NCBI GenBank assembly: GCA_934277375.1
Contig: CAKQTZ010000001.1
Coordinates: 124,001-188,000 of the forward strand
DNA: 64,000 bases
Origin: an uncultured Coprococcus sp.
Lineage (GTDB): Bacteria; Bacillota; Clostridia; Lachnospirales; Lachnospiraceae
Reading direction: 5' to 3'
The position numbers and the translations under genes were made by a program. This document shows, piece by piece, positions 58-6,328 of the stretch. The notes beneath the pieces are model-generated. The model did not search any database. It saw only the letters and a program-made list of their open reading frames with translations, and was not told where the DNA came from. Every line of letters starts with the position of its first letter. The first letter of the stretch is position 1.

Positions 58-320
58 CAAGCTACTTGACATGTATTACAAAGACAACGTGTATATGGCA
101 ATTTTGCACGAATGCTTTAAATATATAGCAATCCACTGCATTACCATGAGCAGGACATTTGAGCCCGCCGGTACTCAGCGAGCATGCGAGCGCTAGTACC
201 GCTGCAGGGTGAAACGAGCGAAAGCGCTCCTGCTCAGGTATGCAGTCGAATGCTATATTCCACAATCTTCCCGCAAAATTGCCTACCCACTACTTTCCGT
301 AATACATGTCAAGCCACTTG
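58..320. repeat. Long imperfect palindrome, copy 1 (subunit B/D junction)
   Basis: The left arm (58-154) and right arm (223-320) are imperfect reverse complements. Shared blocks are CTTGACATGTATTAC, GGCAATTTTGC, ATATAGCA, ACTGCAT and TGAGCAGG. The centre (155-222) carries the core also found near 3550 and 6210: CCTGCAGCGGTAC and ACCGGCGGG, here in the opposite orientation to the other two. The right arm overlaps the last codons of subunit B. As RNA it would form one very long hairpin between the B and D genes. No T-run follows, so it is not a simple terminator. An open frame at 62-265 on the minus strand is a by-product of the palindrome. Confidence 0.85.
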
Positions 321-1660
321 TCGTCGATACGTTTCAGCTCGGCTCTAGGAAGAATGGAGAGAAGCTTCCAGCCTATGGCAAGTGTCTCCTCTATACTTCT
401 GTCGGTGCCATACCCCTGGGATACATACTCCTTCTCAAATGCCTCTGCAAACTTTGCATATATGATATCTATATCCGAAAGTGCCGACTCACCCAGGATC
501 GTCATGAGCTCCTTGGCATCCTTTCCTCTTGAATAAGCTGCAAATAACTGGTTCATGGTGCTGGCGTGATCACCTCTGGTCTTGCCCTCACCAGTTCCCT
601 TATCCTTAAGTCTGGACAGTGATGGAAGTACATCGATAGGCGGTGTGATTCCCTTTCTGTACAGCTCTCTTGAGAGAATGATCTGTCCCTCTGTGATATA
701 TCCCGTAAGGTCTGGTATAGGATGAGTCTTGTCATCCTCAGGCATGGTCAGGATCGGTATCATGGTGATACTTCCATTCTTGCCCTTCTGTCTTCCGGCT
801 CTCTCATACAGAGTTGCCAGGTCAGTGTACATGTATCCAGGATAACCACGGCGTCCCGGAACCTCTTTTCTTGCGGCTGATACCTCACGAAGTGCATCCG
901 CATAGTTCGTGATATCCGTGAGGATTACCAGAACGTGCATGTTCTTCTCAAATGCAAGATACTCAGCAGCGGTAAGTGCCATTCTAGGTGTGGCGATACG
1001 CTCAACCGCAGGATCATTTGCCAGGTTGATGAAGAGGACTGTTCTGTCTATGGCACCAGTCTCCTTGAAGCTCTCTGTGAAGAAGTTTGCCTCCTCAAAT
1101 GTGATACCCATGGCTGCAAATACAACGGCAAATGGCTCATCTGTTCCGCGCACCTTCGCCTGTCTTGCTATCTGGGCTGCAAGCTGGCTGTGCGGAAGTC
1201 CTGAAGCTGAGAATATCGGCAGCTTCTGTCCTCTTACCAGTGTGTTCAGTCCGTCTATGGCTGATATACCTGTCTGGATGAACTCAGACGGATAGTTCCT
1301 GGCAGCCGGATTCATCGGCAGACCGTTGATATCTCTTCTCTCATCAGGGAGGATTTCAGGGCCGCCATCTATAGGTCTTCCAAGTCCGTCAAATACACGG
1401 CCAAGCATGTCTTCTGATACGCCAAGCTCCATACTTCTTCCAAGGAATCTTACCTTACTGTTTGAAAGGTTGATACCTGTCGAGTTCTCAAAGAGCTGTA
1501 CCAGGGCATCCTCTCCGTTTATCTCAAGGACCTTGCATCGTCTGATCTCGCCGTCCGCCAGCTCTATCTCACCCAGCTCGTCATAAGCTACATTCTCAAC
1601 TCCGTGCACCAGCATCAGAGGACCCGCAACTTCCTGTATAGTTCTGTATTCCTTTGGCAT
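290..1660 (-). CDS. atpB: V-type ATPase subunit B
   Basis: The product (456 aa) is the non-catalytic nucleotide-binding subunit of the A3B3 head of a V/A-type ATPase. It starts [15 protein letters not shown], has the family segment [18 protein letters not shown] in place of a Walker A P-loop, and contains the [14 protein letters not shown] stretch. Length is normal for the family. The ATG is preceded by AAGGAGG nine bases upstream and lies four bases after the subunit A stop, so translation is probably coupled. The 3' end (about the last ten codons) forms part of the right arm of the palindrome at 58-320. The assignment is very secure. Confidence 0.97.
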
Positions 1661-1664
1661 AGTC

Positions 1665-3428
1665 TTAGTCCTCCTTCTCTATAGCTTCCTGAAGCTCTTT
1701 GTCAAGCTCCCTGGATATCTTCTCGTACTCTTCATCCACATTCTCAGGAAGCACATATTTGAATCGTCCGATCTTCTCTCTGATCGGCATGTTCAGAATA
1801 TTTCTTATGCTTGCTCCACCGGCAAGGGCCTGCGCTGACTCCTCGTAGAACGCCATGATGAGCTCCATCATCAGAAACTGCTTGTGAAGCGGTGTGTATG
1901 TGTCCACATCATGGAATGAGTTCTGGTGGAGGAAATCCTCTCTGATGGATCTCGCCGCCTCCATCTTCAGCCGGTCTCCCGCTGAAAGGGCATCCATACC
2001 TACCATCTTAACGATCTCATCAAGCTCAGCCTCCTCCTGAAGCAGGGTCATCATCTTCTGTCTGTCGGCCATGAACTTTTCATTTACATTTTCCTCGAAC
2101 CATTTGCCCATATTGTCCACATACAGAGAGTATGAGGTCAGCCAGTTGATGGCAGGGAAATGTCTCTTGTACGCAAGTGATGAATCCAGTCCCCAGAATA
2201 CCTTGACGATTCGAAGTGTAGCCTGTGAAACCGGCTCGGAGATATCTCCACCTGGAGGAGAAACCGCACCGATAACCGACAGTGCGCCGGTTCTGCCCTC
2301 ACTGCCAAGGGTCTTGACCATTCCGGCTCTCTCGTAGAACTGCGCAAGTCTTGAACCGAGGTAAGCAGGGTAACCCTCCTCACCAGGCATCTCCTGCAGA
2401 CGTCCTGACATCTCTCTGAGCGCCTCAGCCCAACGCGATGTGGAATCCGCCATGAGTGCCACCGAGTAACCCATATCACGGAAATACTCAGCTATAGTTA
2501 TACCTGTATATATAGATGCCTCTCTGGCCGCAACCGGCATATCCGATGTGTTGGCTATGAGGACTGTTCTCTGCATGAGTGAATGTCCGGTCTTCGGATC
2601 CTTCAGTTCTGGGAACTCATTCAGAACATCCGTCATCTCATTTCCACGCTCTCCGCATCCGATGTAGACAACGATATCCGCCTCAGCCCACTTTGCAAGC
2701 TGGTGCTGGATGACTGTCTTGCCGCTTCCGAAAGGTCCGGGAACCGCAGCCACTCCTCCCTTTGCGATAGGGAAGAATGTATCTACAACTCTCTGTCCTG
2801 TGATAAGAGGCATAACCGGTGGTATCTTTTCCTGATATGGACGGCCCTTACGAACCGGCCACTTCTGCATGAGTGTCAGCTCCCTGTCACCCTTGTCTGT
2901 CTCAACCACACACACAGTCTCCTCAACTGTAAAGTCTCCTGACTTTATCTCTTTGATTGTTCCTGTCACGCCATAAGGCACCATGATCTTCTGTGTGACG
3001 ACCACCGTCTCCTGAACTGTTCCTATCACATCGCCTGCCGACACCTTATCGCCAACCTTTGCCGCCGGAACAAATGTCCACTTAATATCTCTCTTCAGCG
3101 ATGGTACTTCAACTCCACGCTTCAGGTTATTGCCACATATCTTCATGATGTCATCCAGCGGTCTCTGGATTCCATCGTATATACTGCTTATAAGTCCCGG
3201 TCCCAGCTCAACTGACAGAGGCATTCCCGTTGACTCAACCGGTGCTCCCGGTGCAAGTCCCGATGTCTCCTCATATACCTGAACTGACGCCTGATCTCCA
3301 TGCATCTCTATGATCTCGCCGATAAGTCTGCTCTCACTTACACGCACAACGTCGTACATATTTGCATCACGCATGCCCTCAGCGATGACCAGTGGTCCGG
3401 CGACCTTCTTAATCTTTCCTGTAGCCAC
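1665..3428 (-). CDS. atpA: V-type ATPase catalytic subunit A
   Basis: The catalytic subunit (587 aa) hydrolyses or synthesises ATP in the V1 head. The Walker A motif GPFGSGKT is at residues 231-238, followed by GCGERGNEM with the catalytic glutamate, and the expected long insertion characteristic of V/A-type A subunits precedes the P-loop (about residues 110-190). The start codon is GTG at 3428. The nearest purine-rich ribosome-binding site (GGGAG) is unusually far, about 13 bases upstream, and the upstream spacer is almost entirely a palindrome (3455-3678) that may influence initiation. It sits between subunits F and B, as in the Enterococcus ntp operon. Confidence 0.97.
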
Positions 3429-3454
3429 TTAACAGCTCACGCTCCCTTCTATAC

Positions 3455-5599: not shown

Positions 5600-5623
5600 A
5601 AAGTACATCCTCCTTACAAAAAG

Positions 5624-6097
5624 TTATAATTTGATTCCATTTACTGCAAGAATTGATACCAGAAGTGCAAGAATCGCATATGTCTCAACCATGGCTGGGA
5701 AAAGCATTGCCTTACCAAACTGATCAGGCTTCTTTACAACTATTCCAACTGCTGCAACTGCTGTCTTGCCCTGGTGCATTGCTGATACAAGACCAACAAC
5801 TGCTATTGGAAGACATGCTGCAAGCATCATAAGTCCCTGTGCTACTGTGAGCTCCTTCGGTGTTCCTGAAAGGATTCCTATGTTGGACAGTGCTATGAAT
5901 CCAACAAGAAGCCCGTAGATACCCTGTGTACCCGGAAGAAGCTGGATGATAAGAACCTTTGCGAATTTGCTTGGATCCTCACTTACTACACCTGCTGCCG
6001 CCTGACCGGCAACTCCTACTCCGTATGCAGATCCCATACCTGCAAGAATTACTGCCAGCGCAGCTCCCACTAATGCCAAAACCGTTCCCATTGTCAT
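5624..6097 (-). CDS. atpK: V-type ATPase proteolipid subunit K (rotor ring)
   Basis: A 157-aa, four-helix proteolipid formed of two fused hairpins; it forms the membrane rotor ring. Only the second hairpin has the ion-binding carboxylate (Glu138, in MVETYAIL). The first hairpin has LPGTQG (Leu54, Thr57, Gln58) and helix 3 has Gln109 in MHQGK. These residues match the sodium-coordinating set described for Enterococcus hirae NtpK (Leu61, Thr64, Gln65, Gln110, Glu139), so sodium transport is likely; this is by motif only. A clear AGGAGG site precedes the ATG, and palindrome copy 3 lies upstream. Confidence 0.95.
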
Positions 6098-6119
6098 AAT
6101 ATTTTCTCCTCCTAAAATT

Positions 6120-6328
6120 GATTTACGGACGGCAATGTGAGTGATTGACGAACGTTGTTTTTGATCTGATATACTGATTCGGAACGCTCGCGCTCAACTC
6201 ACCCTGCAACGGTACTAAGGTGCTGCTTACGCACCACCTAAGGACCGGCGGGTTCGTATGTCCTTCATCAGTATATTCAGACAAAAGCAACTGTACATGA
6301 CACTTTCACATTGCCTGTCTTTGATATT
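6120..6328. repeat. Long imperfect palindrome, copy 3 (subunit I/K junction)
   Basis: This lies in the 400-base gap between subunits I and K. Paired blocks are GGCAATGTGA (from 6131) with TCACATTGCC (6306-6315), GTTGTTTTTG with CAAAAGCAAC, and ATATACTGAT with ATCAGTATAT. The centre carries CCTGCAACGGTAC, a loop with its own stem (TAAGGTG.../CACCTAAGG), and AGGACCGGCGGGTTCGTAT. Nothing else was recognised in the rest of the gap (6329-6497), which is T-rich on the plus strand. Confidence 0.85.

Follow-up and report, generated by a model that had tools for sequence, protein, structure and literature searches.

Repetitive extragenic palindromic (REP) sequences, REP doublets forming hairpins (REPINs) and bacterial interspersed mosaic elements (BIMEs) are palindromic intergenic repeats that are dispersed at high copy number, as the cited parts of the literature describe them (PMC2817692, PMC3116915). 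Here we analyze three long palindromes in the V-ATPase operon of an uncultured Coprococcus sp. (Lachnospiraceae), which lie within 64,000 nt of contig CAKQTZ010000001.1 (assembly GCA_934277375.1, positions 124,001 to 188,000), a stretch hereafter called the window. They are located between the genes for subunits B and D (B/D), F and A (F/A), and I and K (I/K), and are probably copies of a dispersed, mobile, non-coding hairpin of the Lachnospiraceae that has an RNA-folding core and arms formed or refreshed through inverted copying of the neighboring sequence. The element shares dispersal, palindromic form, intergenic position and high copy number with the REP systems and their REP-associated tyrosine transposase (RAYT, Y1), as far as these are described in those accounts; unlike them, it has a core of 82-100 nt that forms a three-way junction and arms of ~60-100 nt that differ from site to site. 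REP units are short and carry a GTAG/CTAC foot, and the core exceeds them in length. Furthermore, unlike the REP/RAYT pairing, the element has no steady tie to Y1_Tnp genes, which were present in 5 of 8 element-positive and 5 of 8 element-negative genomes, drafts that may be incomplete.

Miniature inverted-repeat transposable elements (MITEs) are similar to the element in being short, non-coding and dispersed, with near-identical bursts and, in one of its subfamilies, inverted ends; the near-identical copies and empty sites that mark mobility are shared as well. Unlike MITEs, the element has no terminal inverted repeats common to the whole family, its RNA-like core covaries, and gene ends occur in its arms. 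Template switching at quasi-palindromes or RNA stems makes or repairs perfect stems via reverse-complement copying and, in the portions of the work cited, has been proposed for RNA hairpins (PMC8794818). As in palindromes of that origin, one arm of the element is, at the loci described below, an inverted copy of existing neighboring sequence, and template switching as outlined there would explain arms that are paired and yet change; it is a mutation process, whereas the element is a mobile core around which such a process would act at many sites. Long inverted repeats containing coding sequence are also described from the mitochondria of Nematomorpha (PMC6649704), but there, in contrast to the element, the setting is an animal mitochondrion, both arms code, and the cited portion of the paper mentions no common core. 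Structured-RNA candidates from the human microbiome include palindromic ones, 230 of which may form terminators (PMC8040213); the examples named in the available text are from Bacteroidetes and the string 'Lachnospir' is absent from it; these candidates might overlap with the element. The best reading of our results is a dispersed bacterial palindrome with an RNA-like core and arms able to copy their surroundings, which is not tied to the ATPase. No description of the family was found in the literature searched, most subscription papers and all preprints lying outside its coverage, and the element is apparently an undescribed multi-copy hairpin repeat of gut bacteria.

Palindromes, gene ends and the common core

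Imperfect palindromes were present at all three places where the initial annotation had reported them (Table 1). When the minus strand was folded, as that annotation had proposed, all three lay far beyond dinucleotide shuffles, with -129.5 kcal/mol for B/D (z -12.05), -90.8 kcal/mol for F/A and -81.6 kcal/mol for I/K, and none of 200 shuffles was equal in any of the three. The claim that the arms pair inside each copy yet differ between copies was also borne out: local alignment scores within the three copies were 28.2, 21.3 and 20.6 (shuffle maxima 13.5, 11.5 and 12.7), whereas between copies the arms scored at the shuffle mean and the cores scored 18.3, 26.7 and 43.0. No arm or end sequence is common to the window copies. 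A shared core of 82-87 nt does exist, but it is not the same sequence throughout, with CCTGCAACGGTAC in I/K and an F/A version that ends as ACCGGCGGC. The spacers had been described as nearly filled, which does not apply to I/K, where the palindrome takes up about half of a 400-nt spacer (6098-6497). In B/D, the right arm extends into the end of atpB. A point that had been missed is orientation: the core sequence as initially given reads on the plus strand in two of the copies (F/A and I/K) and on the minus strand in the third (B/D). The operon is on the minus strand and the strand of B/D that reads the GNRA mini-hairpin is the plus strand, so that B/D is inverted relative to the operon and to the other two copies.

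For detection, a covariance model (R1) was built from 20 cores, with E-values based on a short calibration. Confinement of the core to these three places had been claimed for the window, and R1 indeed gave exactly three matches in the 64 kb at E<=1; the window copies belong to the training set of the model, and their matches are thus expected by construction.

Table 1. Positions of the palindromes, their cores and the atpB-derived arm segments in the window (ORF, open reading frame)
Feature	Position	Strand	Remarks
B/D palindrome	58..320	+	Strand is that of the core with the GNRA mini-hairpin, opposite to the operon; arms of 94 + 87 nt outside the core, paired
Core of B/D	152..233	+	R1 60.1 bits; GNRA mini-hairpin 217-226, loop GAAA 220-223
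Outer right arm of B/D = atpB 3' end (...KWLDMYYGK + stop)	290..320	-	ORF 290-1660; C-terminus alike in relatives
Outer left arm of B/D = inverted copy of atpB end	58..79	+	Inverted repeat with 299-320, 86% over 22 nt
F/A palindrome	3455..3678	-	Fold z -6.85; arm pairing
Core of F/A	3521..3607	-	R1 57.1 bits
I/K palindrome	6120..6328	-	Fold z -8.12; arm pairing
Core of I/K	6178..6264	-	R1 66.7 bits

Three loci that were checked carry the 3' end of a host gene in one arm and an inverted copy of that end in the other. The gene is atpB in B/D, where the inverted match between the left arm and the atpB end scored 15.8 and none of 2000 shuffles was as good; the C-terminus of subunit B was found in 76 of the 81 sequences searched and is alike in relatives (...KRIDDK-LD-YYGK). 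The second locus (L157 of genome G290) emerged from a scan of 58 copies in which 10 were flagged, 4 of these being discounted because the called ORF spans the element; here one arm contains the end of a gene, and the end of the encoded protein matches V-ATPase K (5/2000 shuffles). At the third (L129 of G405), the last codons of a 382-codon gene recur inverted across the core at 16 of 16 bases, and the diverged orthologous site in G187 is without such an inverted repeat. For the 126 copy-sides at which an ORF of 150 codons or more terminates no farther than 150 nt from the core, taken from copies that are partly non-independent, the mean score was 7.97 compared with 7.05 for swapped flanks, and 12 of the 126 lay beyond the 99% point of the swaps (1.3 expected). 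A further candidate, L364, was dropped, its translation being a repetitive region and its shuffle test (55/2000) having fallen on the wrong stretch.

Covariation shows that the core, ~82-100 nt long, folds as RNA into a three-way junction, in which a closing stem meets a bulged central stem, variable at its tip, and a GNRA mini-hairpin of two pairs. In an alignment of 93 distinct rows (100 matches), which was fitted to the R1 model and is biased to that extent in favor of its structure, 91.0% of the cells were paired (68.7% shuffled), two-sided changes occurred in 602 cells (181.7 after shuffling and no more than 140 after sliding), and the covariation score was 0.488 (0.145 shuffled); further pair types numbered 78 compared with 72.2, a value reached by 13 of 500 shuffles. 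A MAFFT alignment of 20 copies, with a structure written from its own folds, had 24 two-sided cells compared with 5.1, and 16 further pair types compared with 14.5, which 103 of 500 shuffles equaled. The loop of the mini-hairpin is GNRA in 91 of the 93 rows and its third base is a purine in all 93, which, by the usual loop rules, would favor RNA over a DNA GNNA loop; the mini-hairpin stem changes from GC/GC to GU/AC in 3 copies.

Distribution and mobility of the family

The exact core pattern had two matches in 397 genomes of the Lachnospiraceae, of which L081 was convincing and L082 was rejected as a chance match because no hairpin is present there. At L081, a copy of the element lies inside the tip of an older copy, and of the 17 genomes in that genus, 2 carry the L081 sequence in dispersed form, with 43 and 82 pieces that match it. 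With R1, matches were obtained at E<=1e-3 in 128 of the 397 genomes, which makes this a structured repeat family, unmatched in Rfam, in the sampled genomes of one major gut family. R1 matches were also present in 6 of 291 genomes sampled across the class; five of the six are in the family sample too, and the sixth, G597, has element loci in common with G216 of that sample. Copy counts in the family scan are lower bounds, since at most 10 candidates per genome were scored and stricter filters were used. In G187 (1.6 Mb), R1 had 64 matches at E<=0.1, and the best 48 of these were used for detailed work; 14 of the 48 have a longer core with ~110 extra nt of hairpins. Rfam 15 yielded no match to the element in the whole window, and none that was credible at E up to 5 in positions 1-7000 and nine element loci. 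A plasmid search with the B/D element and a phage search with the I/K element gave no match, and no exact core match was found in viral contigs.

Near-identical dispersed copies together with empty sites point to mobility. Twelve sites in G187 carry nearly the same core (R1 101.0-101.8 bits), and the spacer between genes read as nrdD and nrdG measures ~206 nt in G187, where it contains the element, and 34 nt in G405, where the element is missing. Four of 40 G405 loci could be aligned on both sides to the 1.6 Mb of G187, and none of the four holds any of the 48 listed G187 copies. Regarding a target site duplication, no direct repeat was evident by eye in the flanks inspected, and the divergence of the empty sites prevents the joint from being located. 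In G187 and G405, one subfamily has the common ends GGRCTGTA...TACAGYCC. With regard to intrinsic terminators, in which a T run comes after a GC-rich stem, many G187 copies end in ...CCCCTTT, as read from their flanks.

The copies are usually intergenic, on either strand and mainly behind genes. In G187, the flanking genes are co-directional for 26 copies (9 sense, 17 antisense), convergent for 17 and divergent for none, and 5 copies overlap ORF calls, while the spacers longer than 60 nt given by a simple ORF caller comprise 611 co-directional, 81 convergent and 99 divergent ones. A second set comprised 49 copies, drawn from G187 and from other genomes, and of the 43 that could be placed, 12 were sense, 14 antisense, 12 convergent, 3 divergent and 2 inside an ORF call. 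A strand bias relative to replication was rejected as a general feature; the ratio was 15 to 33 in G187 (p 0.013), but other genomes (24:24) and G405 (25:23) were balanced or nearly balanced by local skew. Among neighboring genes, one group of 8 ABC-type ORFs recurred, and otherwise just pairs were found, some of which are orthologous loci.

Several arrangements were seen in addition. Concentric nested arrays, in which left halves are repeated and then right halves, as if each copy had entered the preceding tip, occur in G405 (L123, L125, L126, L130, L134, L136 and L140-L142). Short or core-less hairpins with the outer ends of the element, resembling deletion remnants or terminators, are present in G187:C1 near 58661, 538232, 597628, 652924, 722808, 1401632 and 1444499. 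Oppositely oriented copies stand ~80-130 nt apart in G278 (L363), G309 (C55 and C42) and G189:C2. Among the longer-core loci of G187 (L111, L229, L231-L234 and L236-L242), the arms differ. At G187:C1:249560-257525, a stretch of less than 8 kb contains a Y1 transposase gene together with two genes for reverse transcriptases.

Origin of the arms

In G187, the 30 nt adjoining the core on each side match with a mean of 0.79 within copies, compared with 0.61 between copies and 0.56 after shuffling (gapped alignment). Among G187 pairs with a core identity of 0.90-0.95, left-arm identity is two-peaked (below 0.6 in 29 of 82 pairs, at least 0.8 in 46), and this spread indicates that the arms often travel with the core yet can be uncoupled from it. 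In G338, the cores of L350 and L355 are 0.86-0.92 identical to those of other copies and their left arms 0.24-0.44 (pairs with cores above 0.85). The orthologous copies L200 and L201, which come from two genomes, have cores that are 94% identical and arms that differ, the L200 arms folding and the L201 arms appearing paired by eye. The arms thus pair within a copy, differ by site and can contain the end of a neighboring gene, and inverted copying of neighboring DNA would be the simplest process that gives all three properties.

We propose that the constant part of the element is its RNA-folding core, the long arms having no fixed sequence across the family, and that the arms may be made, or repeatedly renewed, through inverted copying of the DNA adjoining the core, a step to which the observed products point. 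The copying could occur by fold-back extension at insertion, with the closing stem of the core setting one end back onto the flank, or afterwards, if replication switched template from one arm to the other; copies would also spread in bursts together with their arms. More tentatively, the core of ~90 nt might belong to a new kind of mobile element that folds back at each insertion to copy the target flank into long arms of its own and is able to insert into its own tip, producing concentric nested palindromes. The burst, nested, core-less and orthologous copies form a natural series for testing an inverted-copying origin of long bacterial hairpins, and they call for caution, in that covariation in hairpin arms may reflect the mechanics of mutation as well as selection on RNA.

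Several observations weigh against inverted copying or against mobility of this kind. The arms of G187 pairs with a core identity of at least 0.95 are mostly alike (at least 0.8 in 181 of 190 pairs, below 0.6 in 3), and those of the orthologous pairs L195/L196 and L205/L206 barely differ. Gapless pairing of the arms within copies is low in 8 of 9 G338 copies (0.28-0.44), in which the arms appear by eye to be out of register. The G290 case is moderate, the top shuffle (16.6) exceeding the observed score (13.3), and for some of the 12 high-scoring copy-sides, L126 among them, the probable cause is an ORF that continues into an arm. A mobilizing enzyme was not found when Y1_Tnp and RVT_1 were looked for in these possibly incomplete drafts: of the eight element-positive genomes, all outside the genus of G187, five had RVT_1 and G278 had neither domain, and with RVT_1 in six of the eight element-negative genomes there is no consistent link to the element.

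The burst copies are what would be expected of an ordinary MITE-like family, moved in trans by a transposase, in which ends, arms and core are one unit and paired arms drift slowly. The G187/G405 subfamily with its common ends, the spread of its bursts with their arms, the like arms of most close-core pairs, and the core-less and shortened versions in G187 agree with this reading; we nevertheless consider it rather unlikely, because the window copies have neither arm nor end sequence in common, gene ends are found in arms, strong core covariation and a GNRA loop are unexpected for a mere transposase binding site, and a direct target repeat is not evident by eye. The nested copies, which occupy the tips of older ones, suggest a different route, namely that the core inserts into the tip of a long hairpin already in place, for example a terminator or an older copy. 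Many G187 copies are indeed flanked by A-rich sequence on the left and T-rich sequence on the right of the outer stem, and short core-less hairpins with the same ends exist; however, the G187 site orthologous to L129, though diverged, contains no such hairpin, and in the short spacers listed for relatives no inverted copy comes after the atpB end, which leaves this route unlikely. Also improbable, and slightly more so, is a functional structured RNA, for example a 3' end stabilizer, in which selection acts on arm pairing alone and the arms change through compensatory mutations. Such a role would fit the paired yet different arms of L200/L201, the core covariation, and the position of copies behind genes, but the mixed orientation to co-directional genes in both sets and the 269 of 397 family genomes without a match at the threshold used speak against it, and it leaves the gene ends in arms unexplained.

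Relation to the V-ATPase operon

The initial annotation had suggested that the palindromes act in RNA processing or in setting subunit ratios, with an inserted mobile hairpin as the alternative. An operon-specific RNA device of this type would account for the presence of all three window copies inside this operon, for L003, and for the G290 copy behind its V-ATPase K gene. L003 is the one locus with an R1 core match, located in F/A, among 80 loci with V-ATPase subunit A in the relatives listed (best 83% subunit A identity, closer relatives being possible); its operon also has a core-less hairpin in B/D with similar arms, as judged by eye, so that the same two spacers as in the window are involved. 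The other 79 loci are without a core match, the orientation of the core is mixed within the operon, and the family is dispersed genome-wide, with copies elsewhere. Nor do the copies prefer this operon (1 of 80 listed operon loci, compared with 128 of 397 family genomes), and a trio within 6.3 kb is not rare by the standard of G187, where one was seen, 0.58 were expected and 42% of simulations contained one. A copy of subunit A at an identity of at least 75% was present in just 5 of the 44 element-positive genomes searched, so that the element is independent of a V-ATPase close to that of the window. We therefore conclude that the palindromes are not an ATPase-operon device, a role that we regard as highly improbable, and the alternative of an inserted mobile hairpin is supported by the dispersal across the family, the near-identical copies and the empty sites.

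The lengths and folds of the relatives' spacers indicate that the palindromes are not conserved parts of the operon and that some spacers tolerate inserts or hairpins. Over 73 operons, the median length of the I/K spacer is 5 nt, and 3 of these spacers are longer than 80 nt (the window being counted in both); the F/A spacer has a median of 24 nt over 80 operons and exceeds 80 nt in 17 of them (window included), and the B/D spacer has a median of 29 nt over 65 operons and exceeds 80 nt in 15 (without the window). The K/E spacer is longer than 80 nt in 7 of 73 operons, and the C/F (78 operons) and A/B (76 operons) spacers are never that long. Among spacers of at least 60 nt, folds with z < -3 (20 shuffles each) were obtained for 8 of 19 in F/A (window included), 8 of 21 in B/D and 4 of 11 in K/E, and most of the folded spacers that were inspected in relatives are unlike the window element. 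The resemblance between the positions of the palindromes and the boundaries of the enzyme modules, to which attention had been drawn, fits spacers in which inserts are tolerated. On the explanation we favor, a mobile hairpin with arms from inverted copying, the copies in the ATPase operon would occupy such insert-tolerant spacers, and whatever influence they had on the ATPase mRNA would follow incidentally from the long stem; an incidental effect of this kind, for example through RNase III cutting or altered stability, may exist.

Elsewhere in the window, further strong inverted repeats without the core are present at 52187-52248 and 59707-59765, and a glmS ribozyme/riboswitch, found by the Rfam search, lies at 55313-55472 on the minus strand with 60.7 bits, which exceeds its gathering score.

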